This document shows positions 2,189 to 16,049 of a DNA stretch of 64,000 nt, piece by piece (position 1 is the first letter of the stretch; every line of letters starts with the position of its first letter). The DNA comes from Burkholderiales bacterium (GTDB taxonomy: Bacteria > Pseudomonadota > Gammaproteobacteria > Burkholderiales > Burkholderiaceae_C). The DNA lies in the NCBI GenBank assembly GCA_019509985.1, contig JAEKLF010000036.1, forward strand, positions 3,517 to 67,516, read 5' to 3'. Under the pieces are notes generated by a model. The model made no database searches. It was not told the DNA's origin and was given only the letters and a program-made list of their open reading frames with translations. Made by a program: the position numbers and the translations under genes.

Positions 2189-2554
2189 ATGGGCACGCAG
2201 CGAAACGTTTCGCGCCCGATGCGGCAACTGCTCACGCTGATGCCTCGGGTTCAAGTCGACGCTGATGGTCAGCCTGACTTTGATGCCAGCGCGCCCGAAT
2301 TGTTGGTGCAGATCGCGGAGTCGGCCGAGCTGCTGCAGCGCGTGATCGCGTTGGGCACGAGCGCCGTGGGTCAGTTGATGGCCTTCGCGTCGGCAGACGT
2401 CGACACAGGCGAAGTCGGGCAGGACGCCATCGAAGCCCTCGGCTGGCTGATCGCCGAGATGTGCGACGGCGCTGCGGCATGCCTGGTGTTGGCAGCGCCA
2501 TGCAGGCGGGTCACGGCGGATTTCACGGGAGCGCGCGATGGCGAAGCGCAGTAA
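2189..2554 (+). CDS. Hypothetical protein upstream of recombinase
   Basis: 121 residues, ATG at 2189, two bases after the stop of the previous gene. It is mostly helical by composition, with ELLVQIAESAELLQR and an alanine-rich centre. I do not recognise a domain. Its 3' end overlaps the start of the recombinase gene by 17 bp, so it is probably translated together with it and may be an accessory factor of the recombinase or of the element's maintenance. That link is inferred from position only. Confidence 0.5.
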   Translation: MGTQRNVSRPMRQLLTLMPRVQVDADGQPDFDASAPELLVQIAESAELLQRVIALGTSAVGQLMAFASADVDTGEVGQDAIEALGWLIAEMCDGAAACLVLAAPCRRVTADFTGARDGEAQ

Positions 2555-3488
2555 GGGCAACGTGCGGCCAGCGACCAAAGAGGGCGAGGCGAGCCCATCG
2601 GCCGAGGTCAACCGCTACACCCACGCCGCGCTGGCCGCCAACACCCACCGCAGCTACGCCGCCGACCTGAATCACTTCAAGGCGGCCGGGGGCACGATAG
2701 CCTGTACGGCGGTCCAGCTCGCCGAGTACCTGGCGAGCCATGCGACAACGCTGGCGGTGGCGACACTGCAGCATCGGCTCATCGCCATCCATCGTGCACA
2801 CCTCAAGGCCGGCCTGGCCTCGCCGGCCATGGATACGCTCGTCAAACAGACGATGCAGGGCATTCGGCGCACGCGCGGAACGGCGCAGCGGCGCGTCAGC
2901 GCGCTGGTCAAGGACGACATCATCGAGTTGGTGCTGACTGCGGAGAAGCAAAAGCCGCTCAAGGCCGCACGCGATGTTGCACTGATCTTGGTCGGCTTTG
3001 CGGGGGCGTTCCGCCGATCAGAGCTGGTGAGCATCCAGCGAGAGGACATCACCGAGTTCGACCATGGCCTTGAGATACACGTCCGGCGTACGAAGACACA
3101 GCAGGAGGCCGGACACACGGTGTTCATACCCTGCGCCAAGTCGTCGCGGTGCCCGGTCAAGGCGCTCAAGCACTGGCTGGCCCTGAGCGGCATTGAGTCT
3201 GGTCCGGTACTCCGCCGTATCAACCGGCATGACCAACTCGTCTCCGGCGAGGCGCTGACGGCTCAGTCCGTGGCGTTGGTTCTTAAGGCCGCCGTGACCG
3301 CGGCCAAGGGCGCTGAGGCTGCGAAGTTTTATGCGGGGCATTCGCTCAGGGCTGGGTACTGCACCGAGGCGGCGTCAGTCGGCGTACCGACGCACGTCAT
3401 CATGGATCAGACTGGGCATCGCAGCCCGGCCATGTTGACGCGATATATCCGACCCCTGACGCGCAGGAAGACTCCGTCCCTGCTGTAG
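2538..3488 (+). CDS. Tyrosine recombinase (XerC/D-like integrase)
   Basis: 316 residues. The N-terminal 110 residues look like a SAM-like core-binding domain (ANTHRSYAADLNHF). The catalytic set is visible: arginine in GAFRRSELVSI, then HSLRAGY, TGHRSPAM and the nucleophile tyrosine in LTRYIRPL. It cuts and rejoins DNA at a specific site. It lacks the DUF4102 arm-binding domain of the integrase at 21,238-22,593, so the element holds two different recombinases. It lies 146 bp upstream of the defence operon and could mobilise that operon as a nested unit or act in dimer resolution. Confidence 0.85.
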   Translation: MAKRSKGNVRPATKEGEASPSAEVNRYTHAALAANTHRSYAADLNHFKAAGGTIACTAVQLAEYLASHATTLAVATLQHRLIAIHRAHLKAGLASPAMDTLVKQTMQGIRRTRGTAQRRVSALVKDDIIELVLTAEKQKPLKAARDVALILVGFAGAFRRSELVSIQREDITEFDHGLEIHVRRTKTQQEAGHTVFIPCAKSSRCPVKALKHWLALSGIESGPVLRRINRHDQLVSGEALTAQSVALVLKAAVTAAKGAEAAKFYAGHSLRAGYCTEAASVGVPTHVIMDQTGHRSPAMLTRYIRPLTRRKTPSLL

Positions 3489-3511
3489 CAGGCAGAGCTG
3501 GCGCATCTGAA

Positions 3512-3535
3512 CCAAACGTCGCGAGACGTGTTTGG
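3512..3535. promoter_or_regulatory. Imperfect inverted repeat ahead of defence operon
   Basis: CCAAACGTC and GACGTGTTTGG flank a GCGA centre (one arm has a 2-base insertion). It lies in the 146-bp gap between the recombinase stop and the methyltransferase start. It could be an operator for the defence operon or a weak terminator of the recombinase gene; nothing in the sequence decides between these. Confidence 0.3.
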
Positions 3536-3634
3536 AGATCTGCTTTGAGGAAGTCGAAGTGGCGTTCACCGCTCGACGGGCGCAGCACCTTGGTTGCTAC
3601 CATGTTGGGGCGCCCGAGGAGCGCCCTCATCCAC

Positions 3635-6418
3635 ATGAACGCCGTAGAAATCGAACAAGCCATCTCCGAGCTGGCGCTTCAGCCTTTTGACCCCGTCGAG
3701 TTTCCGTACGCCTTCCTGGCTGCCTTCGGCAACAAGGAGGTCACGCTCAAGCGCCTGCGCAGCGGCAATAACAACACATCCGATCTGTCGGATGGAGTCC
3801 TGCTGCGCAACAACATCCATATTGCGACCTGCGAGGCGCACAACGTCAGCGAGACTTTCGCCGCCCTGCTAGCAAGCCCCGCCACCACCAAGGGCAAGGC
3901 CAAGTTCGTGCTGGCCACTGATGGGCAGACCCTGGAAGCCCAAGAACTGGTCAGCGGCGAAACCATCGCCTGTGACTTTGAGGATTTTCCCAACCACTTC
4001 GGGTTCCTGCTGCCGCTAGCCGGCATCTCCACCATCAAGGAGATCAAGGACAACCCCATCGACGTGCGTGCCACGGCGCGGCTAAACAAACTGTACGTTG
4101 AGCTGCTGCGCGAGAACCCCGCCTGGGCCAAGGATGAACGGCGCAGCGACATGAATCACTTCATGGCGCGCTTGGTGTTTTGCTTCTTTGCCGAAGACAC
4201 CGGCATCTTCAGCGACACGGGCCTGTTCACGCAGACGGTTGACCGCTGGAGCGATCGCAGCGGAGGCAACACCCACGAGGTCCTGTCCGAAATCTTCCGG
4301 GCAATGAACATCAAGCCCTCAGAACGCGGTGCCGCAACGCCACGCCTGCCAGCCTGGGCCAATGCCTTCCCATACGTGAACGGCGGACTGTTCTCGGGCA
4401 GTACCGAGGTGCCGCGCTTCACCCAGATGGCCCGTACCTACCTGCTGCACGCTGGGGCGCTGAGCTGGCGCGAAATCAACCCGGACATCTTCGGCAGCAT
4501 GATCCAGGCGGTGGCTGACGACGAAGAGCGGGGCGCCCTGGGCATGCACTACACCAGCGTGCCTAACATCCTGAAAGTGTTGAACCCGCTGGTTCTCGAC
4601 GACCTGCGCGCCGCACTAGCCGAGGCAGGCGACAACGAACGCAAGCTGCTCAACCTACGCAAGCGCATGGCTCGAATCCGGGTGTTCGACCCAGCCTGCG
4701 GATCAGGCAACTTCCTGGTCATTGCTTACAAGCAGATGCGCGAGATCGAAGCAGAGATCAATCGACGGCGCGGTGAGTCATATCTCGGCAGCGAAATCCC
4801 GCTGACAAACTTCCGCGGCATTGAGCTGCGAAACTTTCCAGCGGAAATCGCCCGGTTGGCATTAATTATTGCTGAATTCCAGTGCGACGTTCTTCATCGT
4901 GGGCAAAAGGATGCTCTGGCGGCATTCCTTCCACTAAACGCGCAGAATTGGATTATTTCCGGCAATGCATTGAGGGTTGACTGGCTCAATATATGCCCGC
5001 CCACCGGCACTGGGGTCAAACTCCTGGCTGACGATTTATTTGAAACTCCTCTCGATCAAGCGGAAATCGACTTCGAGAACGAGGGCGGTGAAACTTATAT
5101 ATGCGGCAACCCTCCATATCTCGGGAACAAGCTGCAAACTTCTGAACAAAAGGCCGATCTTGAAAGTATATTCGGCGGACTAACCTCCAGCTGGAAATCG
5201 CTTGACTACGTAGCAGGATGGTTCATGAAAGCCGCTGCCTACGGACAACACAGTAAATGTGCAACCGCGTTCGTAAGCACAAACTCCATTTGTCAGGGGC
5301 AACAGGTTCCTATTCTTTGGCCACTGGTTTTTCAGCGAGGGCAGGAAATTTCTTTTGCCCATACTTCGTTTAAGTGGGCCAACCTTGCCAGCAACAACGC
5401 TGGAGTTATTGTCTCGATAATTGGTATAGCGGCAAATCCGGGCAAAAGTCGTAGATTATTTTCAATCGCAGAAGATGGCGGGTTGGTATCGCGGGACGTT
5501 GATTACATAAATGCGTACTTGACGCCAGGCCCAAATCTTGTCGTTGAGGCAGTTTCCGCTCCGATCAACGGGCTGCATCAAATGATGTTTGGAAACATGC
5601 CGCGAGATGCTGGGCAGTTGTTGATGTCTACTGAAGAGCGCAAAGCTCTAGTCGCCGTTGAACCGAGAGCCGGGAAGTATCTAAAAGACTTTGTTGGTTC
5701 CGAAGATGCGATTCACGGTGGGAAGCGCGTATGTGTGTGGGTAGGCGAGGCGGAATATGAGGCTGCGAGGGAAATCCAAGCGTTGCGCGAACGATTCGAT
5801 GACGTTAAGCGAGAGCGCTTGGCTATGAAAGCACCGTCCACTCAGGCGTATTCAAAAAAGCCCTATCGGTTTGTTCAAATTCAAGGCGTAGCGAAGTCCC
5901 ATCTTTTCTTGATTCCACGCCATTCGTCGGAGTCAAGACCATATTTGCCAATCGCGCTTTTTGACGGATCCACCATTGTTGCGGATAGTGCGTTCGCAAT
6001 CTATGACGCGCCTTTGTGGAATTTTGCTTTATTCAGCTCCCGACTACATCTTGTTTGGGTGGCGACAGTGTGCGGCAAGATTAAGAGTGATTTTAGATAT
6101 TCCAATACTATTGGATGGAACACGTTCCCGGTTCCGACGCTGACCCAGCAAAACAAAATAGACTTGGATGAGTGCGCGGAAAGAATTCTTGCCGCTCGCG
6201 AGGCGCACTTTCCGCAGTCTATTGCTGATCTGTATGATCTTGAGTCGATGCCGGAAAATCTGCGTCGCGCTCACGAATGGAATGATGAAGTGCTGGAGAG
6301 GATTTATATCGGCCGCACTTTCCGCAACGACACTGAGCGGATCGAGAAGCTATTTGCACTTTACGCCGCCGGAAAAGGTTTGGTCGCGAAGGTTTCACGG
6401 AAGCGAGTTCCCTCATGA
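3635..6418 (+). CDS. MmeI-like N6-adenine DNA methyltransferase, nuclease motif absent
   Basis: 927 residues from the ATG at 3635; upstream in-frame ATGs lack a ribosome site. It has the layout of MmeI-type enzymes: N-terminal domain, helical spacer (FPYVNGGLF, NPDIFGSMIQAV, LGMHYTSVPNI), SAM motif I DPACGSGNF near residue 352, catalytic NPPY near 492, then a target-recognition region. It should methylate adenine in a specific site. MmeI itself has a D-x9-ExK nuclease site near residues 70-82; nothing like it is present here, so this protein probably only modifies, leaving cleavage to its neighbours. From about base 4,850 to its end the gene is clearly AT-richer than its first half. It overlaps the next gene by ATGA. 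Confidence 0.85.
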   Translation: MNAVEIEQAISELALQPFDPVEFPYAFLAAFGNKEVTLKRLRSGNNNTSDLSDGVLLRNNIHIATCEAHNVSETFAALLASPATTKGKAKFVLATDGQTLEAQELVSGETIACDFEDFPNHFGFLLPLAGISTIKEIKDNPIDVRATARLNKLYVELLRENPAWAKDERRSDMNHFMARLVFCFFAEDTGIFSDTGLFTQTVDRWSDRSGGNTHEVLSEIFRAMNIKPSERGAATPRLPAWANAFPYVNGGLFSGSTEVPRFTQMARTYLLHAGALSWREINPDIFGSMIQAVADDEERGALGMHYTSVPNILKVLNPLVLDDLRAALAEAGDNERKLLNLRKRMARIRVFDPACGSGNFLVIAYKQMREIEAEINRRRGESYLGSEIPLTNFRGIELRNFPAEIARLALIIAEFQCDVLHRGQKDALAAFLPLNAQNWIISGNALRVDWLNICPPTGTGVKLLADDLFETPLDQAEIDFENEGGETYICGNPPYLGNKLQTSEQKADLESIFGGLTSSWKSLDYVAGWFMKAAAYGQHSKCATAFVSTNSICQGQQVPILWPLVFQRGQEISFAHTSFKWANLASNNAGVIVSIIGIAANPGKSRRLFSIAEDGGLVSRDVDYINAYLTPGPNLVVEAVSAPINGLHQMMFGNMPRDAGQLLMSTEERKALVAVEPRAGKYLKDFVGSEDAIHGGKRVCVWVGEAEYEAAREIQALRERFDDVKRERLAMKAPSTQAYSKKPYRFVQIQGVAKSHLFLIPRHSSESRPYLPIALFDGSTIVADSAFAIYDAPLWNFALFSSRLHLVWVATVCGKIKSDFRYSNTIGWNTFPVPTLTQQNKIDLDECAERILAAREAHFPQSIADLYDLESMPENLRRAHEWNDEVLERIYIGRTFRNDTERIEKLFALYAAGKGLVAKVSRKRVPS

Positions 6419-7509
6419 GCGCATCTGACTACATCGCCCAACCGACGTTTCGCACAACTCTCGACGCGATACAAAGCATTCTCGGTAGCGGACAGGTTGA
6501 AAGCATAGATATAGCGGTCGCCTATATAACTAGCGGCGGAGCGCATGACTTCGTTACCCGAGCGCGTCAAGCGGTTGGCAACGCGTGGGACGGCATCCAG
6601 AAGAGATGGGTCACTTCATTCGACTATTGTCGGACAGAGCCTATCGCTCTGGAATATATAAGCTCTATTCCAAATTCAAGCGTTCGGATTTTCGGTGCTG
6701 ATTTCTGTTTGCTACACGGATGCGCGCCACAAGTCCCCTTTCACCCCAAGACCTTCTTAATTAAAACGAATCTGGACGACTTCGCGCTCGCAGGTTCCGG
6801 CAACATGTCAAGATCGGGGCTCTCGCGCGGCGTCGAGGCGGGGCTTGTATTAAGCGTTAACCGTGCAAACCCCATCGAAGCAACCTCCGCAGCTTCCATA
6901 GTCGGCATGAGCCACTGGTTCGACAATACGTGGGGCGATTCGTTGCCTTTGACGCAAATAATGCTCGGCAATTATCGGAGCGTGTATAGGCGCGCGGACA
7001 ATCTAAGGCATCCCGCCCCAACTGATGACGATATTGCAAGCACTGAATCGGGCATAGGATCGCTTTCGACGAAGGATCTGCAAAGGCTGCGAGTTTGCGA
7101 AAGTTTCTGGATTGATGCAGGGAATATTACAAAAAACAGGGGTCCAGCCTTGCCCGGCAACCAGCTTATGATGAAGCGCTTGTCGAGAGTTTTTTTTGGA
7201 TTTTCTCCTGCCAGCCTCCCCAAAAATTCTCATATCGGCGATATCGACATAAGAATAAATGGAGGTCAGAGCGGCATGTTTTCGCTCACCTACAGCGACA
7301 ACAAGATGGACAAGCTGGTTTTGCCGGTGCCGGGGGCGGGAGCGCCCGCTGCCTACGATAATGAGTATCTATTGTTTCAGAGATGGCGGCCAGGTGGATT
7401 CGAGTTGTCACTTGGTTCTAAGGCCATGAAGAATCAGTGGCTTAAAAAAAGTTCGGTCATCGACGCTGCTTTCAAAATGTCGAGTGGGCGCGAATGGGGA
7501 GTGTTTTGA
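6415..7509 (+). CDS. PLD-family (single HKD) nuclease-like protein
   Basis: 364 residues, overlapping the methyltransferase stop by 4 bp, so translationally coupled. One phospholipase-D-type motif is visible: H110-P-K112 followed by GSGNMSRSG around N130. Single-HKD proteins usually dimerise to build the active site and several are DNA nucleases (BfiI, Nuc, DISARM DrmC are known examples). The C-terminal half is unassigned. Base composition is close to 50% GC, matching the last half of the methyltransferase but not the helicase that follows. Its likely role is cleavage or target sensing for the cassette; substrate unknown. Confidence 0.7.
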   Translation: MSASDYIAQPTFRTTLDAIQSILGSGQVESIDIAVAYITSGGAHDFVTRARQAVGNAWDGIQKRWVTSFDYCRTEPIALEYISSIPNSSVRIFGADFCLLHGCAPQVPFHPKTFLIKTNLDDFALAGSGNMSRSGLSRGVEAGLVLSVNRANPIEATSAASIVGMSHWFDNTWGDSLPLTQIMLGNYRSVYRRADNLRHPAPTDDDIASTESGIGSLSTKDLQRLRVCESFWIDAGNITKNRGPALPGNQLMMKRLSRVFFGFSPASLPKNSHIGDIDIRINGGQSGMFSLTYSDNKMDKLVLPVPGAGAPAAYDNEYLLFQRWRPGGFELSLGSKAMKNQWLKKSSVIDAAFKMSSGREWGVF

Positions 7510-7558
7510 TGTTGTGTGACGATCTAGCAGTCTGGAATTCTTCCGAGAAGGCCGCGCC

Positions 7559-9682
7559 ATGAGCGAGGCGCTAGAGAATCCAACCAACGCCTACACCGTG
7601 CCGTCGGTGTCCATCACCACGGCACGCACTGGGGCGTCCAGCAAGGCCAACGAGTTAGGCATGCGTGCCATGCAGGAGCGGGCTTACGCCAAGCGGGGCG
7701 AGCAGTACCTTTTGATCAAGTCGCCGCCGGCTTCGGGCAAGAGTCGCGCCTTGATGTTCATCGCGCTGGACAAGCTGAACAACCAGGGCTTGCAACAGGC
7801 CATCGTCGTGGTGCCCGAGCGGTCAATCGGCGGCAGCTTTGCCGACGAGCCATTGAGCCAGTTCGGCTTCTATTGGGACTGGCACGTCGCCCCTCAACGG
7901 AACCTGTGCAATGCACCTGGTGGCGACGAGCCGCGCGCAGCCAAGTCCAAGGTCGACGCGGTGCGGCAGTTCCTGGCCAGCACCGACAAGGCCCTGGTCT
8001 GCACCCACGCCACCTTCCGGTTCGCGGTGGAAGAGCTTGGCATTGCAGCCTTCGACAATCGCCTGATTGCCATCGACGAGTTCCACCACGTCTCCAGCAA
8101 TCCAGACAACGTGCTCGGCAGCCAGTTGGGCGCCTTCATCGCCCGCGACAAGGTGCACTTGGTGGCCATGACTGGCTCGTACTTCCGCGGAGACAGCGAA
8201 GCCGTACTAGGCCCGGCCGATGAATCGAAGTTCGAGACGGTCACCTATACCTACTACGAGCAGCTCAACGGCTACCAGTGGCTCAAGTCGCTGGACATCG
8301 GCTACTTCTTCTACACCGGCCCCTATGTGGACGCCGTGACGAAGGTACTCGATCCGGCGCTGAAGACCATCGTCCACATCCCGAACGTCAACGCGCGCGA
8401 GAGCCTAAAGGACAAGCAGCGCGAGGTGGACGAGATCATGCACGGCCTGGGCGAATGGAAGGGCGTTGACCCTGACACCTGCTTCCACCTGGTGGTGGCC
8501 AAGGACGGCCGCACCCTTAGGGTTGCTGACTTGGTAGACGACAGCGACCCCGCGCGGCGCACCCGTGTGCTCGGCGCGCTGAAAGATCCCGCGCACAAGG
8601 ACGACCGTGACCATGTGGACGTGATCATCGCGCTGGGCATGGCTAAGGAAGGCTTCGACTGGATTTGGTGCGAACACGCGCTGACCATCGGCTACCGCAG
8701 CAGCCTGACCGAGATCGTGCAGATCATTGGCCGAGCCACGCGAGACGCAAAAGGCAAGGAACGGTCACGCTTCACGAACCTGATTGCCGAGCCGACGGCC
8801 GAGCAATCCGCCGTGACCGAGGCCGTGAACGACATGCTCAAGGCTATCTCAGCCAGCCTTTTGATGGAGCAGGTACTAGCGCCGCGCTATGAGTTCACGC
8901 CCAAGAATGCCGGCGCCCAAGACGGCTTTGTTTACAACGGCGGTGAGGGCTACCAAGAAGGTGGCACCAACGTCGGCGTGAACGAGGCCACTGGCCAATA
9001 TCACGTCGAAATCAACGGTCTGGCAAAGCCCGAGACGCCCGAAGCCACCCGCATCTGCAGGGAAGACTTGAACGAGGTGGTTACCAGCTTCCTGCAAGAC
9101 AAGACGGCGTTGGAGCGTGGCTTGTTCGACAAGGAAAACACCTTGGCCGAGGAGCTGACGCAACTGCGTATGGGCAAGATCGTGCGCGAGCGCTACCCCG
9201 AGCTGAGCGAAGGTGACCAAGAAGCCATCCGGCAGCACGCCATCGCCGCCATGAACATCACCCAGCAAGCCAAGCTGGCCTTGGCCCAGGCAGACGCCGC
9301 TGGCGGTACCACGGTGCAAGGCAGCACGGCGCTGCTGGACGGCGTGCGCAAGTTCGTCAACGTGCGCGACTTGGACATCGACTTGATCGACCGCATCAAC
9401 CCCTTCGATGCGGCCTATGCGGTGCTTGCTAAAGCAATGGACGAGAAATCGTTGCGCCAGGTACAGGCCGCCATAGCGGCGAAGAAGGTGAGCATTCCCG
9501 AGGATGAGGCCCGCGACCTGTCGAAACGCGCTTTGCAGTTCAAGACCGAGCGAGGTCGTCTGCCAGACATCAACTCGGCTGACGCCTGGGAAAAGCGCAT
9601 GGCCGAGGGGGTAGCCGCCTTCGCGCGCTATCGCTCGCACGCCAAAGCGGCGCAAGCCGCAGGAGGCGCCGGCAATGGCTGA
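7559..9682 (+). CDS. SF2 DEAD/DEAH-type helicase of defence cassette
   Basis: 707 residues with an ATG at 7559 preceded by GAGAAGG. Walker A is SPPASGKS (residues 55-62), motif II is DEFH near residue 174, and motif VI QIIGRATRDAKGK lies near 390. The C-terminal 300 residues hold no domain I recognise. This is the translocase layout of restriction-type helicases. It follows the PLD gene after 49 bp and overlaps the GIY-YIG gene by 8 bp. Here GC content is high again, which marks the downstream edge of the AT-rich block. Confidence 0.85.
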   Translation: MSEALENPTNAYTVPSVSITTARTGASSKANELGMRAMQERAYAKRGEQYLLIKSPPASGKSRALMFIALDKLNNQGLQQAIVVVPERSIGGSFADEPLSQFGFYWDWHVAPQRNLCNAPGGDEPRAAKSKVDAVRQFLASTDKALVCTHATFRFAVEELGIAAFDNRLIAIDEFHHVSSNPDNVLGSQLGAFIARDKVHLVAMTGSYFRGDSEAVLGPADESKFETVTYTYYEQLNGYQWLKSLDIGYFFYTGPYVDAVTKVLDPALKTIVHIPNVNARESLKDKQREVDEIMHGLGEWKGVDPDTCFHLVVAKDGRTLRVADLVDDSDPARRTRVLGALKDPAHKDDRDHVDVIIALGMAKEGFDWIWCEHALTIGYRSSLTEIVQIIGRATRDAKGKERSRFTNLIAEPTAEQSAVTEAVNDMLKAISASLLMEQVLAPRYEFTPKNAGAQDGFVYNGGEGYQEGGTNVGVNEATGQYHVEINGLAKPETPEATRICREDLNEVVTSFLQDKTALERGLFDKENTLAEELTQLRMGKIVRERYPELSEGDQEAIRQHAIAAMNITQQAKLALAQADAAGGTTVQGSTALLDGVRKFVNVRDLDIDLIDRINPFDAAYAVLAKAMDEKSLRQVQAAIAAKKVSIPEDEARDLSKRALQFKTERGRLPDINSADAWEKRMAEGVAAFARYRSHAKAAQAAGGAGNG

Positions 9683-10886
9683 CATGGACGACGACGAACT
9701 GCTCGATGCGCTAGGTGTTGAATTCACCCCGTTAAAGGCATCGAGCCGCACCCCGCGCGAGGAGCGCATCATCGCGGGCTTTGAAGACATCCTGCGCTTC
9801 CACCAAACCCACGGACGCGCCCCGCGGCATGGCGAAGGCGGTGAAATCTTCGAGCGTCTGTATGCAGTGAGGCTTGATCAGTTGCGCAAGTTGCCCGAGG
9901 CGCATGCCCTGTTGGCCGGGCTGGACAAGCCTGGCCTGCTTATTGGTTCGTCCAGCGCCGCGACTGATGTTGATGCCCTCGATGAAGATGCTTTGCTGGC
10001 CGAGTTGGGCGTTAGCCATGTTGTGCCCGATGACGACGACATCACCGTGCTTCGCCATGTGCGATCCAGCGTGGAAAAGCGGGCAGCCGAAGAGGTTGCG
10101 GACCGCTCGCCCTGCGAAGACTTCGAGAACTTCCGACCGCTGTTCGAGCGGGTCGAGGAGGAGTTGAAGGCAGGCGTGCGCAAGGCCCTGCGCTTTGGCC
10201 GCGATGCCAGCGTGGCCGATGGCAACTTCTTCATCGTCGGCGGCCAGCTCGCCTACGTGGCCGCGGTGGGTAACACCATCAAAGCTCCGAATGGGGAGAG
10301 CGACGCGCGCTTGCGGGTGATCTACGCGAACGGCACCGAGAGCAACTTGCTCCGTCGATCCCTGCAACGTGCTCTGTACAAGGACGACACCGGCCGGCGC
10401 CTATCCGACCCAGACATGGGGCCGCTGTTCGGCGGCACGGCCGAACCCGAGGATATTGAGTCCGGCACGATCTACGTGCTGCGCAGCAAGTCCGACCACC
10501 CCTTCGTTGAAGCGCACCGCGAGCTGATCCACAAAATCGGGGTGACAGGTGGAAAGGTCGAGACTCGCATAGCGAGTGCAAACAAGGACGCTACCTATTT
10601 GCTAGCCGACGTTGACGTTGTCGCGGCCTATGCACTCCACAACGTGAACCGGGTGAAGCTGGAAGGGATCTTCCATCGCCTGTTTGGGGCCGCACAACTC
10701 GAATTAACCATCTCAGATCGTTTCGGCAATCCGGTCAAACCGCGGGAGTGGTTCTTGGTGCCGCTGGCCGTGATTGACGAGGCTGTTCAGCGGATTTGCG
10801 ACGGGTCGATCACTGCATACGTGTACGACCCGCAAACGGCGCGGCTGGTCGGTCCTGACGCCACGACCGGTCATTCGCCCGATTGA
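9675..10886 (+). CDS. GIY-YIG (T5orf172/MUG113-type) nuclease-like protein
   Basis: 403 residues. An acidic N-terminus (MADMDDDELLDALGVE) occurs again in similar form around residue 105 (LDEDALLAELGV), so it has an internal repeat. The C-terminal domain has GTIYVLRSKSD, then KIGVTGGKVETRIASA and KLEGIFHRLFG, the pattern of the T5orf172 branch of GIY-YIG nucleases. It overlaps the helicase gene by 8 bp and stops 4 bp before the DUF4365 gene. It is the best candidate for the cleaving subunit of the modification cassette. Confidence 0.75.
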   Translation: MADMDDDELLDALGVEFTPLKASSRTPREERIIAGFEDILRFHQTHGRAPRHGEGGEIFERLYAVRLDQLRKLPEAHALLAGLDKPGLLIGSSSAATDVDALDEDALLAELGVSHVVPDDDDITVLRHVRSSVEKRAAEEVADRSPCEDFENFRPLFERVEEELKAGVRKALRFGRDASVADGNFFIVGGQLAYVAAVGNTIKAPNGESDARLRVIYANGTESNLLRRSLQRALYKDDTGRRLSDPDMGPLFGGTAEPEDIESGTIYVLRSKSDHPFVEAHRELIHKIGVTGGKVETRIASANKDATYLLADVDVVAAYALHNVNRVKLEGIFHRLFGAAQLELTISDRFGNPVKPREWFLVPLAVIDEAVQRICDGSITAYVYDPQTARLVGPDATTGHSPD

Positions 10887-10890
10887 TTCC

Positions 10891-12216
10891 ATGGCCGAAA
10901 AGAAGCTCACGAACCAACAGCTTCTTGGCGAGCAGGGTATCGCGCTGATCAGCCTCGCGGTGTCTGGCATCGGCTTCGTGTGGAGGCCGACCTCGCAACA
11001 CGACACGGGCATAGACGGCGAAATCGAGGTGCGGGACACAGTGACGGGTGCAGTATCCGGTTTGCTGCTCAAGGTCCAAAGCAAGGCAGTCTCGTCGTTC
11101 GGCAATGAAACGGCGGATGGCTTCGACTACTCGCCCGAGGCGAGGGACGTCACCTACTGGCTGGGGCACAACGTGCCCGTAATCCTGGTCGTTTCACGTC
11201 CAAGTACCGGGGAGGTGTACTGGCAGCCTGTGCAGGAGCCTTCGGGCCAAGCACGGTCGCGCAAATTTTGCTTCGATAAGCGGCGCGACGCGCTTAATGC
11301 CAATGCCACGGGCCGGCTGACAGAGCTTGTCCGGCAGCATTCGGCAGGCGCTCGCGGCGTGGCATTGCAACGTTCGGAGCGGCTGGTCAGCAACCTTCTG
11401 CCGGTGACCAAACTGCCGACGCGGTTGTACCTGGCCGAGACTCCGCACCGGACTGGTAAGGACGTAACAGACGCGCTGCAAGGCAGGCAACTGTCCTTTG
11501 AATTCGTGCTAAAGAACAAGCGCGTACTGACGGTCCGTGACCTGACAGACCCGAGGTATGAATTCCTTTGTGACCGTGGAACCGTAGAAGACTTCCCGGT
11601 TGCCCAGTGGTCGGCCTCGGACGATCCCAACACTCAGCGAGATTTCGTGCATCTACTGAACCAGTGTCTTCGGCAGGCGCTTCGTACCTTGCCTGGGCGC
11701 ATCCGCCGCAATAAGGAAACGGGCGCGTACTTCTTCCCCTCGAACACTGAACGCACGGCCTACTCTATTGGCTACCAGGGGCAGAAAAAGACTACTGCGC
11801 GCGAGGTCGTCAAGGTGCTTCGCAACAAGAAGCTAGACCACGTCATGGGCTTCAGGCATTCGGCGATGTGGGGACAGTTCAACCGCTATGACGGGCGGTG
11901 GTATCTGGAGGTCACGCCGACGTACGTCTTCACCGGGCCGGACGGAACCTCACCGAGCAGATTCGCAGGAGAGTGGACCAGCGGCATCAAGCGGCTAGAG
12001 AAGAACCAGTCCGTTCTTGGCCAGTTGGTGATGTGGGAGGAGTTGCTCACTTCGGAGGTTGACCTCTTTGTCGAGCCGTACCCTTTTCTCGGGTTCGGCA
12101 AGCTCTTGAGCTTTTCGACTGATCGCGGTATCGACGATGAAGCATGGACGCCTCCTGACGATGACGTTGCTGGCGCTGCTGAAGATCTGCCTGCCGGACT
12201 GTTCGACACGCCATGA
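10891..12216 (+). CDS. DUF4365-APAZ effector nuclease (SPARDA DREN-APAZ)
   Basis: 441 residues from the ATG at 10891 (MAEKKLTNQQ). The N-terminus is a DUF4365 PD-(D/E)xK-type fold: GEQG with E14, GIDGEIE with D42, and VQSK with Q63-x-K65, so the site is a D...QxK variant. The rest (about 150-441) fits an APAZ domain by position and by the gene pair. In the known SPARDA system such a protein binds a short Argonaute and degrades DNA and RNA indiscriminately once guided target recognition occurs. It starts 4 bp after the GIY-YIG stop and overlaps the Argonaute gene by ATGA. Confidence 0.8.
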   Translation: MAEKKLTNQQLLGEQGIALISLAVSGIGFVWRPTSQHDTGIDGEIEVRDTVTGAVSGLLLKVQSKAVSSFGNETADGFDYSPEARDVTYWLGHNVPVILVVSRPSTGEVYWQPVQEPSGQARSRKFCFDKRRDALNANATGRLTELVRQHSAGARGVALQRSERLVSNLLPVTKLPTRLYLAETPHRTGKDVTDALQGRQLSFEFVLKNKRVLTVRDLTDPRYEFLCDRGTVEDFPVAQWSASDDPNTQRDFVHLLNQCLRQALRTLPGRIRRNKETGAYFFPSNTERTAYSIGYQGQKKTTAREVVKVLRNKKLDHVMGFRHSAMWGQFNRYDGRWYLEVTPTYVFTGPDGTSPSRFAGEWTSGIKRLEKNQSVLGQLVMWEELLTSEVDLFVEPYPFLGFGKLLSFSTDRGIDDEAWTPPDDDVAGAAEDLPAGLFDTP

Positions 12217-13688
12217 AACTCGACTTCATAGAAGAACCAGAGCTGGAATTCGGCGGCCTGCGCAGGCACGTGGACATCCGGGAGGGGCTGAAGCAGTTCG
12301 GGCCCTTGGACATAGGCGACAGTGCTCCACGACGCATTCGTGCCGGTATCGTCGGGACGAAGCAAACCATGGACGGCTTGCAGCAGTGGTTCGAGCGCTG
12401 CCGCAACGGGGTCGCCGCGAAGGCGAGCAAGCAACCCAATCTTTTTCCGTCCTTTCCGGGCTTTGGCGACGAGTCGCCATTCAGGACGGACTTCGACTTT
12501 GACGCTTCCCTGTGTCGCGTGCTTCCGGCGCGCGACCTACGAGCGCTCGCGCAGCAGTCCCATTACAAGGCGCTGTTCGATGGAGTGGAGATGGTCGCGA
12601 GCGAGATTCGCGCCATCACAGAGCATGGCAGGCCGGACGTGGTGCTGATTGCGCTGCCCCCTGAATTGTTGGGGTTGGACGACGAAGAGGAAGAGGACTC
12701 GGACGGCAAGGCGTCCAGTCCCGAGCCCCAAGAACGTAAGTCTGCCGAGGACGAGGAGCTGGCCTTCGGCACTGACCTCGACCTGCGCAATATGCTGAAG
12801 GCCGAGGTGATGAAATTCGGCCAGCCGATTCAGATCGTGCTCCCTGCGACTTACGATCCTGCGGCCAAAGCACGGAGCGGCAACGCCGACGGCAAGGGGC
12901 GACTTCAGGATGAAGCGACCCGGGCGTGGAACATCCACACCGCGCTGTACTACAAGGCCAACTACCGGCCATGGCGTATCACGCGAAACTATTCGGACCT
13001 GAAGACCTGTTTCGTCGGAGTGAGCTTCTATCGCTCACTGGATAAGGCCAATCTGGTCACGAGCATGGCGCAGGTGTACGACGAACGCGGCGAAGGCGTC
13101 ATCGTCAGAGGCAAGCCGGTGCAGTTGTCGAAGGACGACCCCGTTCCGCACCTTTCCAGCGCGGATGCCTTCGCGCTGATCGACCATGCTCTAAAGGAAT
13201 ACCGCAAGGAGCACAAGCACTCACCTGCCCGCCTGGTGCTGCACAAGAGCTCGAACTACAACGCGGCCGAACTCGAAGGGTTCAACCGCGCCGTCGATGA
13301 ACAAGGACTAGAGACGGCTGATTTCCTGGTCATCACTAAAGCGAGTGCGAAGCTCTTTCGCGAAGGCCGATATCCACCGCTGAGGGGCACGATGTTGAGC
13401 CTGGACAGCCGGAACCACCTGCTCTACACCCGTGGCAGCGTTCCCTACTACGCGACCTACGCCGGCCTGTACGTCCCGCGCCCGTTGAAAATCCAGATTG
13501 CCCAGGGGGACGAAAGTCCCCGGAAGCTCGCCGAAGAAATTCTGGCTTTGACCAAGCTGAACTGGAACAACACGCAGTTTGACGGCGGCATGCCGATCAC
13601 ACTCCGGGTTGCGCGGGACGTAGGTAAGGTGCTGAAGTACGTCAGAGCGGATGGGGTGGTGCAGCCGAAGTACAGCTTCTACATGTGA
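12213..13688 (+). CDS. Short prokaryotic Argonaute (MID-PIWI, catalytically inactive)
   Basis: 491 residues with no room for N and PAZ domains. The MID region ends near residue 260, and the PIWI domain starts at CFVGVSFYRS. In slicing Argonautes the fourth residue of this VGxD strand is the first catalytic aspartate; here it is S271, and the LVLHKSSNY strand (341-349) also lacks an acid. This is typical of short Argonautes that only sense guide-target pairing. The protein ends on a hydrophobic YSFYM, as Argonautes do. An unusual acidic linker (residues 156-183) interrupts the MID domain. It forms the SPARDA pair with the DUF4365-APAZ gene upstream. Confidence 0.88.
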   Translation: MKLDFIEEPELEFGGLRRHVDIREGLKQFGPLDIGDSAPRRIRAGIVGTKQTMDGLQQWFERCRNGVAAKASKQPNLFPSFPGFGDESPFRTDFDFDASLCRVLPARDLRALAQQSHYKALFDGVEMVASEIRAITEHGRPDVVLIALPPELLGLDDEEEEDSDGKASSPEPQERKSAEDEELAFGTDLDLRNMLKAEVMKFGQPIQIVLPATYDPAAKARSGNADGKGRLQDEATRAWNIHTALYYKANYRPWRITRNYSDLKTCFVGVSFYRSLDKANLVTSMAQVYDERGEGVIVRGKPVQLSKDDPVPHLSSADAFALIDHALKEYRKEHKHSPARLVLHKSSNYNAAELEGFNRAVDEQGLETADFLVITKASAKLFREGRYPPLRGTMLSLDSRNHLLYTRGSVPYYATYAGLYVPRPLKIQIAQGDESPRKLAEEILALTKLNWNNTQFDGGMPITLRVARDVGKVLKYVRADGVVQPKYSFYM

Positions 13689-14676: not shown

Positions 14677-15681
14677 CTACCTGACGATGCCAGTTCCGGG
14701 TGTTCGCAATTGCTTGAGCCAGTTCTTAACGCCATCATGCTCCACGGCTTGGATCGCGTAGCCGCGAGCCGAGATAGTCGTTTTCGCACCCGGACTCAGC
14801 TCCGATGTGGTGACGATGACGCCGTACTCTGCCTCCTCATACTGAACGTCGGCGTGCAAGCCCTTAATGGTGACTTTGTCGATCTTGCTCTTAGTCCGCT
14901 TGCACTGAGCGATGCAAAGTGGCTTATCAGCCGAATCAGCGCCTGGATGCCATACACGTACATCGACGCCATCATCATTTCGACCCGGACCGAGTTCTAC
15001 CTTATAGCCCTCGCGCTCAAAAAATTCAGCGGTCAACTGTTCAAACTTACGCCAGTCGATGTCGCCAAGACGGTCAGTATTGTTAGATAAGTAGTCGATG
15101 TACCGCTGGTCGATGAATCGCCCCTTCTCCGGCTGATGGTCCGTCCGCTGAAACAGACTACTCAATTCCAATGGGATATCCCACTCTCGGCCTATGCCGA
15201 AGTGTGGATTCATGCGTATGCCCATTTGGATGATCTCAAACGTCTCCATCGCGATCTTTCCGCCTTCTACGCCGAACTCGCGGAGGATGTCGCGAATGAT
15301 TGCGTCCCCATCAACTGGCCCAGGAGCGCCGCGGCCCGAGCTCAACTTACCGTTCAACCTCATTGAAACCGCTTGGTAGAGCGCGAACTTTTTAGGGTTG
15401 TTTTTGTAGCGATGAAACTGTTTCGCCATCGCGTGTACTGAGCCGAAGTACTCTTGCTCCGTGTAACCGATGCGATGCATCAGACGGTAGTACAGCTCTT
15501 CGTAGTCCTCGGACCTGAGCCTGGCTCCATGCTCTTCTGAATCCCGAACCGTGTCGGGATACCGCGTCCCCGAAAGGTGATCGCAAATCTCTTCAATGGA
15601 CAACGCCAGACCGGCCTTGCCGCCGGCAAGCTCTGTAAGGTTGTCCGGTAAGCTCCTCGGAGGAAAGTTGATGCTGCCCAT
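14677..15681 (-). CDS. Mrr-like restriction endonuclease domain protein
   Basis: 334 residues from the ATG at 15681, with GGGAG seven bases upstream. The N-terminal 200 residues have no family I recognise. The C-terminal 125 residues are an Mrr_cat domain: WRKFEQLTAEFFEREGY, DDGVDVRVW with the metal-binding Asp, then IAQCKR with Q-x-K and YGVIVTTSELSPGAK. Such enzymes cut modified or foreign DNA. It faces away from the OLD gene and is the only minus-strand gene in the 13.7-18 kb stretch. Like the DUF4365 effector it uses a QxK rather than ExK core. Confidence 0.8.
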   Translation of the reverse strand: MGSINFPPRSLPDNLTELAGGKAGLALSIEEICDHLSGTRYPDTVRDSEEHGARLRSEDYEELYYRLMHRIGYTEQEYFGSVHAMAKQFHRYKNNPKKFALYQAVSMRLNGKLSSGRGAPGPVDGDAIIRDILREFGVEGGKIAMETFEIIQMGIRMNPHFGIGREWDIPLELSSLFQRTDHQPEKGRFIDQRYIDYLSNNTDRLGDIDWRKFEQLTAEFFEREGYKVELGPGRNDDGVDVRVWHPGADSADKPLCIAQCKRTKSKIDKVTIKGLHADVQYEEAEYGVIVTTSELSPGAKTTISARGYAIQAVEHDGVKNWLKQLRTPGTGIVR

Positions 15682-16049
15682 GCACGCTCCCTGTTCGACG
15701 GGAGGATAGCGGGAAGGCTGCAAAGTTCCCGAGAACGAGATGTGTGGCCCCCACCTCGCCGCTCGACCTGCGGACGCGGCTCGGTCACGGCCTCGGGCGG
15801 AATTGGCGTCGCGCGCAAATATCCCGGCATCCAAGATTTCCCGGAAGCGCATAGGAGACACAGCGACACCCTACGACCGGCCAGGAAGCCCCGATCCTCA
15901 AGGTTCGCGTTGACGACCATCTGAACATCCGCCGCCCGTTCGGCCGCGGCAGCGTCGAAGAGACCACTGCTTTCGGGTAGCCTCTGCCAGCTTGTGGGCG
16001 GCACTCGCCGCGCGCAGAATCGCCCGCAAACAACAGCCTGGGAGGGCAG
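15682..16049. other. 368-bp divergent intergenic region
   Basis: This lies between the Mrr-like gene (leftward) and the OLD gene (rightward), so it should contain both promoters. I see no convincing gene, repeat or RNA in it. A GGAGG-type ribosome site (GGGAGGGC) sits directly before the OLD start at 16,050. Confidence 0.4.

Follow-up and report, generated by a model that had tools for sequence, protein, structure and literature searches.

A low-GC block linking a methyltransferase recognition domain to a PLD-B3 gene: a probable specificity cassette in a modular restriction-modification operon

Background

Can two unrelated protein folds stay matched to one DNA site while the domain that reads the site is being exchanged? 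The restriction and the modification activity have to share one site, and such matching under exchange is rarely visible. The question is raised by an operon of a Burkholderiales bacterium (assembly GCA_019509985.1), which lies in a stretch of 64,000 nucleotides of contig JAEKLF010000036.1, called here the window, and encodes an MmeI-like methyltransferase, a PLD-family protein, a DEAD helicase and a GIY-YIG protein. An earlier note on this DNA had pointed to an AT-rich block spanning the specificity half of the methyltransferase and the whole PLD gene, and had proposed that it was a cassette replaced by recombination in which the PLD protein and the recognition domain must match. The movement of target recognition domains (TRDs) by recombination, PLD-B3 nucleases and MmeI-type methyltransferases are all already known. 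From the observed mosaic, domain make-up, shared specificity residues and co-divergence, we consider it probable that the block is inherited as one cassette that sets the specificity of both restriction and modification, within a modular restriction-modification operon. The main features, all on the forward strand, are these:

3635..6418, +, MmeI-like adenine DNA methyltransferase (Pfam domains, PDB sequence match, blastn homology)
3635..4748, +, conserved high-GC N-terminal half (N-half) of the methyltransferase, PD-(D/E)XK motif lost (94% identity to L012 and L013 over aa 31-450; aligned columns)
4748..7558, +, low-GC exchanged block (GC3 breaks, identity profile, blastn homology to L012, L013 and L002 restarting at 7,558)
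6415..7509, +, PLD-B3 protein, 364 aa, overlapping the methyltransferase stop by 4 nt (AlphaFold 2 model, best Foldseek match BfiI)
7510..7558, +, 49-nt spacer (printed sequence)
7559..9682, +, conserved DEAD helicase (Pfam DEAD; 96-97% identity to L012 and L013)
9675..10886, +, GIY-YIG protein (Pfam MUG113/T5orf172)

Mosaic structure of the operon

A tblastn scan of genomes with the helicase gave at least 558 confirmed relatives, of which the best 80 were taken as loci (designated by L numbers). The comparison set comprises 78 of 96 loci, those with a methyltransferase match of at least 900 bits, the others being fragments, split or distant; with the window this makes 79 systems. Against L012 and L013, the nearest of its relatives compared, the window is a mosaic. 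The helicase is 97 and 96% identical, respectively, and the N-half 94%, while identity is 62-64% in the rest of the methyltransferase domain, 34-41% in the TRD and 66-69% in the C-terminal domain; neither locus has the PLD gene. In 30-residue windows identity runs at 87-100% over residues 31-450 and at 17-83% inside the block; it drops near residue 450 (4,895), with fourfold sites already falling at about 4,820, and blastn homology restarts at 7,558. Replacement of a cassette by recombination is therefore supported, the N-half and helicase being conserved and the breaks lying near 4,820-4,900 and at the helicase start; uniform divergence with no breakpoint near 4,850 and 7,510, which would have spoken against it, is not what this comparison gave. 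Over the same left part L012 and L013 are also unlike each other, and they agree again from about residue 826 (83-100% in 25-residue windows), so that their exchanged piece ends before the C-terminal domain, while that of the window runs to the helicase. When all of the 79 systems are compared pairwise, the likeness of two TRDs bears no relation to N-half identity (r 0.05), and closely similar TRDs cross phyla: those of L005 (Polaromonas) and L044 (Tumebacillus) are 83% identical, with N-halves at 72%. A megablast search of plasmids with 3,501-9,700 found four records, each matching in two pieces; three have the methyltransferase, helicase and GIY-YIG genes without PLD (one with a 42-codon hypothetical gene between), and the fourth has a PDDEXK gene in the slot between methyltransferase and helicase.

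The AT-rich block itself is real. GC by 300-base windows is 0.58-0.65 over 3,301-4,800, 0.47-0.55 in the windows of 4,651-7,650 and 0.58-0.64 over 7,501-9,900. The segment 4,851-7,510 has a GC content of 0.505 against 0.662 for the whole window. It is the GC-poorest part in a scan of 614 windows of 2.6 kb, where a value no more than 0.01 above that of the block is reached just six times, by windows whose starts lie at about 4,600-5,100. A three-segment fit to GC content at the third codon positions (GC3) of the methyltransferase, PLD, helicase and GIY-YIG genes puts the breaks at 4,748 (2-log-likelihood range 4,670-4,835) and 7,583 (7,267-7,598), with GC3 at 0.80, 0.53 and 0.79 in the left, block and right segments and a gain of 88.7 log-likelihood units against a maximum of 9.6 in 40 shuffles. 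Sliding-window GC and this fit both show the sharp drop inside the methyltransferase and the recovery at the helicase start that had been noticed earlier, and the coordinates then given (4,850 and 7,510-7,555) prove right to about 100 bases by the GC3 breaks, which lie near the identity breaks against L012 and L013. As to contents, the block does hold the TRD and the whole PLD gene, together with the C-terminal domain and the 49-nt spacer; it is more than the specificity half, however, since it begins inside the methyltransferase domain and takes in the rest of that domain with the NPPY motif (5,108-5,119).

AT-richness by itself is no sign of a recent replacement, because the same methyltransferase segment is lower in GC3 than the N-half in 78/78 relatives; for total GC this holds in 76/78, the mean difference being 0.080 and that of the window 0.100. 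Recent transfer from an AT-rich donor was likewise rejected as something the composition could prove, the TRD being AT-rich in relatives of several phyla, and a near donor of the cassette was sought and none found, the best PLD protein identity being 56%. In loci with a PLD gene in the slot, low GC extends through the methyltransferase C-terminal domain: GC3 of the N-half exceeds that of the C-terminal domain by 0.09-0.24 in six such loci and by 0.23 in the window, and by a mean of 0.06 in 71 others (Mann-Whitney, six versus 71, p 2e-4).

The methyltransferase and its predicted site

The methyltransferase open reading frame opens at 3,545; most relatives start at an ATG equivalent to 3,635, and blastn homology begins at about 3,625-3,634. 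A Pfam scan finds MmeI_N, MmeI_hel, MmeI_Mtase, MmeI_TRD and MmeI_C in the one chain, whose sole PDB sequence match is MmeI (5hr4); PADLOC matches it to Type IIG (6.9e-278) far above DrmMI (1.3e-28). At the columns where the helicase-less systems L094 and L096 show D-x9-E-x-K, the nuclease motif is kept in 0/79 helicase-linked systems, the window having Gly, Ala and Cys there; an unaligned search of the N-terminal region found D-x(8-12)-[DE]-x-K in 4/79, the window not among them. The alignments thus indicate that the methyltransferase's own nuclease motif is lost in the helicase-linked family, and cutting would therefore fall to partner proteins. The features that bear on recognition are:

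5528..6142, +, MmeI target recognition domain, aa 662-866 (Pfam MmeI_TRD, E 1.7e-78)
5588..5599, +, Phe682 and Met685 (= MmeI 642/645), predicted A:T at position 2 (alignment to MmeI, PMC4833311)
5918..5989, +, Arg792, Asp814 and Ser815 (= MmeI 751/773/774), predicted G:C at position 3 (alignment, PMC4833311)
6083..6097, +, Lys847, Asp849 and Arg851 (= MmeI 806/808/810), predicted G:C at position 6 (alignment, PMC4833311)
6149..6367, +, MmeI C-terminal helical domain, divergent in slot-PLD loci (Pfam MmeI_C)

The base readers of MmeI, as given in parts of PMC4833311, are Tyr642/Lys645 (position 2), Glu751/Asn773 (3), Arg810/Ala774 (4) and Glu806/Arg808 (6). By the same account, enzymes with Met645 and either Phe or Tyr642 have A:T at the position concerned, those with Asp773 and either Arg or Lys751 have G:C, and so do those with Lys806 and Asp808; Ile/Lys at 642/645 goes with A:T in some enzymes and with C:G in another. 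Applied to the window, these rules predict the site NAGRAG, in which position 4 is the least sure, Ser815 with Arg851 perhaps reading a purine.

The PLD-B3 protein

The partner protein resembles BfiI, with one domain that would cut and one that would read:

6742..6750, +, His110-Pro-Lys112 of the single PLD active-site motif (alignment of 7 sequences)
7090..7506, +, B3 DNA-recognition domain, aa 226-364 (VIA structural alignment of the model)

For this protein a sequence search of PDB chains gave nothing at E up to 1. Its AlphaFold model (AF2, seven-sequence alignment; mean local confidence pLDDT 83.4, overall pTM 0.84) has BfiI as best Foldseek match (E 5.6e-10). Residues 226-364 align with the BfiI recognition domain bound to DNA (3zi5) at VIA Z 10.9 (root-mean-square deviation, rmsd, 3.4; 130 aligned) and with LlaJI.R1 (6c5d) at Z 9.3; the N-terminal part aligns with SauUSI at Z 17.6 and with R.NgoAVII at Z 11.5 (rmsd 3.2, 158 aligned), and the whole model with whole BfiI at Z 13.4 (rmsd 11.1, 276 aligned over both domains). 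H110, K112 and N130, which include the single HxK motif, are invariant in 7/7 PLD sequences. On the evidence of the model, then, the protein is a BfiI-type PLD nuclease domain joined to a B3 recognition domain. Invariant positions of the B3 domain among the seven sequences are gathered in the loop after the first strand (11/22) and in residues 296-317 (8/22), against 7/95 in the rest; in B3 domains generally, such loops contact DNA, as these may do.

Matching of the recognition domain and the PLD protein

Eight helicase-linked systems carry a PLD gene together with an MmeI-type TRD (the window, L039, L055, L072, L073, L074, L089 and L093), in three PLD sub-lineages. All eight have Phe/Met, [Arg/Lys]/Asp and [Lys/Arg]/Asp at the mapped positions, predicting A, G and G at positions 2, 3 and 6 (Arg806/Asp808 in two of them being counted as G by likeness to Lys/Asp). 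Among 69 other systems, leaving out L034 (a near copy of L003) and L007 (broken), Met with both G pairs occurs in 2 and both G pairs in 13 (one-sided Fisher 2.1e-9 and 9.7e-6). None of 20,000 random sets was as homogeneous in these residues as the PLD group, the corresponding counts being 10,664 for YhcG, 5,673 for RhuM and 76 for AlbA, genes that occupy the slot in other loci; with one locus per PLD sub-lineage, 48 of 20,000 random triples were equally homogeneous as the three. At TRD identities of 0.40-0.50 the three-base read-out is common to 20/20 PLD pairs; the shares among non-PLD pairs are 1% of 481 and 6% of 129. Nor do the PLD-linked TRDs form a single clade, an approximately unbiased (AU) test on a tree built without the read-out columns rejecting this at p 4.7e-5: the tree separates L074 and L093 from the other PLD loci and joins them, in a starred clade, to five non-PLD loci without the position-3 pair. 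The match therefore spans at least two TRD lineages, whether by gain or by being kept. The residues at position 4 are Ser/Arg in the window, L039, L072 and L089, Leu/Arg in L055 and L073, and Arg/Ser in L074 and L093, and these groups are also the nearest groups of B3 domains. In L073 the read-out matches though the PLD gene lies behind the GIY-YIG gene.

The two partners also diverge together. The TRDs of the eight PLD systems have an average identity to one another of 0.475, which 0/2,000 permutations reach (random sets, 0.374), while TRD likeness within the groups with other slot contents is not significant (YhcG p 0.58, AlbA 0.20, RhuM 0.13, GmrSD 0.60, empty 0.82). In Mantel tests on the 8 loci, using every eighth of all label permutations, B3 divergence follows TRD divergence (r 0.75, p<0.001) and has no clear relation to that of the N-half (0.22, p 0.059) or helicase (0.19, p 0.088). 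The expectation that TRD and PLD should vary together is borne out by both results, and the idea that they are matched draws support from the agreement of the mapped specificity residues in 8/8.

Three further loci, on helicase-less Methylobacterium/Methylorubrum plasmids (L094, L096 and L152, with the methyltransferase beside PLD), are alike in read-out, having the residues that read G at positions 3 and 6 and Ile/Lys at position 2. DrmMI of the DISARM system of a Methylocystis plasmid (L092), also beside a PLD gene, has residues for G at positions 3 and 6 and gives no clear reading at position 2.

These observations support the following scheme. The N-half of the methyltransferase, the helicase and the GIY-YIG protein would form a fixed frame, in which the second half of the methyltransferase with its TRD is exchanged by recombination, the left break falling just behind the conserved SAM-motif region. 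In the one non-PLD pair examined closely the exchange would end before the methyltransferase C-terminal domain; in the PLD form it would also take that domain and the next gene. The B3 domain of the BfiI-like protein most likely reads the site that the methyltransferase methylates (predicted NAGRAG), and the PLD protein would cut. By analogy it would be a nuclease that finds its target by reading a site and that the helicase perhaps drives; this site would have to be the one that the methyltransferase protects. Self DNA would be safe only if both readers match, and a mismatch would be harmful. A broader form of this scheme, a modular defence core with a plug-in slot, in which the PLD-B3 plug-in independently reads the site of the exchangeable TRD and two unrelated folds move in lockstep, seems to us evenly poised between right and wrong. 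If the cassette is as proposed, such a natural exchange series lets the site of the nuclease be predicted from its partner methyltransferase, making the matching directly testable, and the helicase relatives, at least 558 of them, suggest a large family of modular defence systems that can take additional genes in a slot.

Several results weigh against so simple a match. B3 divergence weakly follows that of the methyltransferase C-terminal domain (Mantel 0.35, p 0.024), and the PLD catalytic domain follows the TRD too (r 0.70, p 0.004), with weak correlations also to the N-half (0.26, p 0.031) and to the helicase (0.25, p 0.039); part of the co-divergence is therefore explained by shared ancestry of the cassette. 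L026 and L078 carry the read-out without PLD, so that it is not sufficient, and the loci with AlbA in the slot (L019, L026, L030, L054 and L080) are also alike in read-out (57 and 76 of 20,000 random sets), so that PLD may not be unique in its link to it. The read-out signature was defined after the PLD loci had been inspected, which makes the homogeneity permutations the fairer measure. There are only 8 PLD systems in three sub-lineages, yielding 2-3 independent tree pairs, too few for a sign test; in these the read-out goes in the same direction in 1.9 of 2 on average and never in the opposite one. A few non-PLD loci are divergent in the C-terminal domain as well (L032 0.63, L061 0.67, L033 0.70). 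Finally, the GIY-YIG residues are intact in the PLD loci, so that PLD is not simply a replacement nuclease.

The best-surviving alternative, though in our judgement unlikely, is that PLD is passenger cargo in the slot and travels with the TRD only through adjacency. The slot does take many unrelated genes, and the tracking of the TRD by the catalytic domain is what hitch-hiking would give; yet YhcG and RhuM in the same slot show no link to the TRD, and the read-out occurs both in L073, whose PLD gene follows the GIY-YIG gene, and in TRDs that form no single clade. Still less probable is that PLD is an effector subunit docked on the TRD or C-terminal domain of the methyltransferase, with B3 serving for contact or non-specific DNA binding; interaction with the TRD was the alternative named in the earlier note. 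Docking could account for the altered C-terminal domain of slot-PLD loci, whose mean identity to non-PLD loci is 0.63-0.70 against 0.79 among non-PLD loci themselves (in L073, with PLD outside the slot, this domain is ordinary, at 0.80), but it leaves the recurrence of the same base-reading residues unexplained, and the concentration of invariant positions in the B3 loops fits a conserved target. That the block only reflects a general AT-richness of recognition domains and nuclease genes, with no exchange, agrees with the lower TRD GC3 of all 78 relatives and is very improbable all the same, being contradicted by the identity profile, by the absence of PLD from L012 and L013 beside a helicase at 96-97%, and by the difference of those two loci over the same left part.

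Relation to known systems

The proposed cassette combines elements known separately. BfiI (Type IIS) and the R proteins of NgoAVII and CglI have the same make-up as the PLD-B3 protein of the window, with a one-HxK PLD domain and, C-terminal to it, a B3 domain. In CglI and NgoAVII, according to portions of PMC4267653, a separate DEAD ATPase is encoded beside the methyltransferase and nuclease, the PLD-B3 proteins bind their own site (through B3, by analogy to BfiI), and cutting needs the ATPase. Those systems use a C5-cytosine methyltransferase, whereas the partner in the window is MmeI-like with NPPY, and a GIY-YIG protein is added. The DEAD ATPase of CglI/NgoAVII systems has a Z1 domain; in the window helicase a Pfam scan at E up to 0.1 found DEAD and no Z1. 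With MmeI and other Type IIL enzymes the methyltransferase shares all five MmeI domains, which makes the base-reading residues mappable, but those enzymes are single chains that include the nuclease, whereas the window system is made up of several genes and the N-terminal nuclease motif is absent in 79/79 helicase-linked methyltransferases. In Helicobacter, recognition domains move by recombination at conserved methyltransferase motifs, the Type III case involving weakly similar sequences that encode them (sections of PMC3983042); unlike that case, the exchange unit of the window also holds a separate PLD-B3 gene.

In DISARM class 1, a PLD relative stands directly behind DrmMI in the Methylocystis plasmid (L092:1977-7080), with no PADLOC match, DrmC included. 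PADLOC found no DrmA, DrmB or DrmC among seven window proteins scanned and no Drm helicase. The PLD protein of the window has no PADLOC match either, DrmC included, and its identification as DrmC was accordingly ruled out. Among the papers listed by full-text searches on MmeI together with GIY-YIG, PLD, helicase, BfiI or NgoAVII, none describes this operon in its title or in the opening of its abstract, and the main text of PMC12839542 mentions neither GIY-YIG nor MmeI.

Contents of the slot and distribution of PLD

The slot between methyltransferase and helicase (L005-L091) is a hot spot for unrelated genes. Among the 78 loci it is under 200 bases, with nothing or little in it, in 34; it holds YhcG/DUF1016 in 6, PLD in 6 (and the window), AlbA/Schlafen in 5 and RhuM in 5, with GmrSD-like, PDDEXK_4, Fic and toxin-antitoxin genes more rarely. 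The Pfam scan of slot genes used one member per cluster; L055 has both PLD and RhuM, and L026 both YhcG and AlbA. In L073 the PLD gene lies behind the GIY-YIG gene instead of in the slot. In the window, a 17-codon frame starts from the TGATG at the PLD stop and ends in the helicase ATGA (7509-7562), and a similar short frame precedes the L039 helicase.

The PLD family is rare in the genomes sampled. At E 1e-15 it was found in 1 of 369 genomes of the window's class and 1 of 349 of its family (its own genome in both), in 1 of 385 of the class of G001 (G001 itself) and in 4 of 394 of the family of G001 (two known, two weak); at E 1e-30, in 2 of 199 of the family of G005 (one new, G1648) and in 1 of 151 and 1 of 139 of the families of G004 and G002 (the centres themselves). 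There were no relatives in viral contigs. The new PLD locus, L149, has a Type IIG methyltransferase without a MmeI TRD match, and the scanned stretches around the PLD relatives L095, L100/L150, L101/L151 (L151 being a short contig) and L153 gave no MmeI-type TRD with the window methyltransferase and the TRD profile. Near sul2, a Paracoccus plasmid carries part of a PLD relative (L154, near 6001-6261, by annotation only).

Neighbouring genes

The GIY-YIG residues Y267, R298 and E330 are kept in at least 97% of 86 sequences, and PLD as a replacement for this protein was ruled out because they are intact in PLD loci too. After the GIY-YIG gene comes a short-Argonaute pair (a DUF4365 protein and a prokaryotic Argonaute, pAgo; PADLOC class I) at 10774-13688. 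Such a pair also adjoins the PLD systems L089 and L093, not L039, L055, L072 or L074, and of 52 non-PLD loci in which 5 kb or more follow the helicase none showed a pAgo. A tyrosine integrase gene (2538-3488) stands directly before the methyltransferase, as in L093 and L005. Another AT-rich stretch, at 14677-15861 on the minus strand, is a Mrr-type restriction gene, with GC of about 0.51-0.55 over 14,701-15,600.

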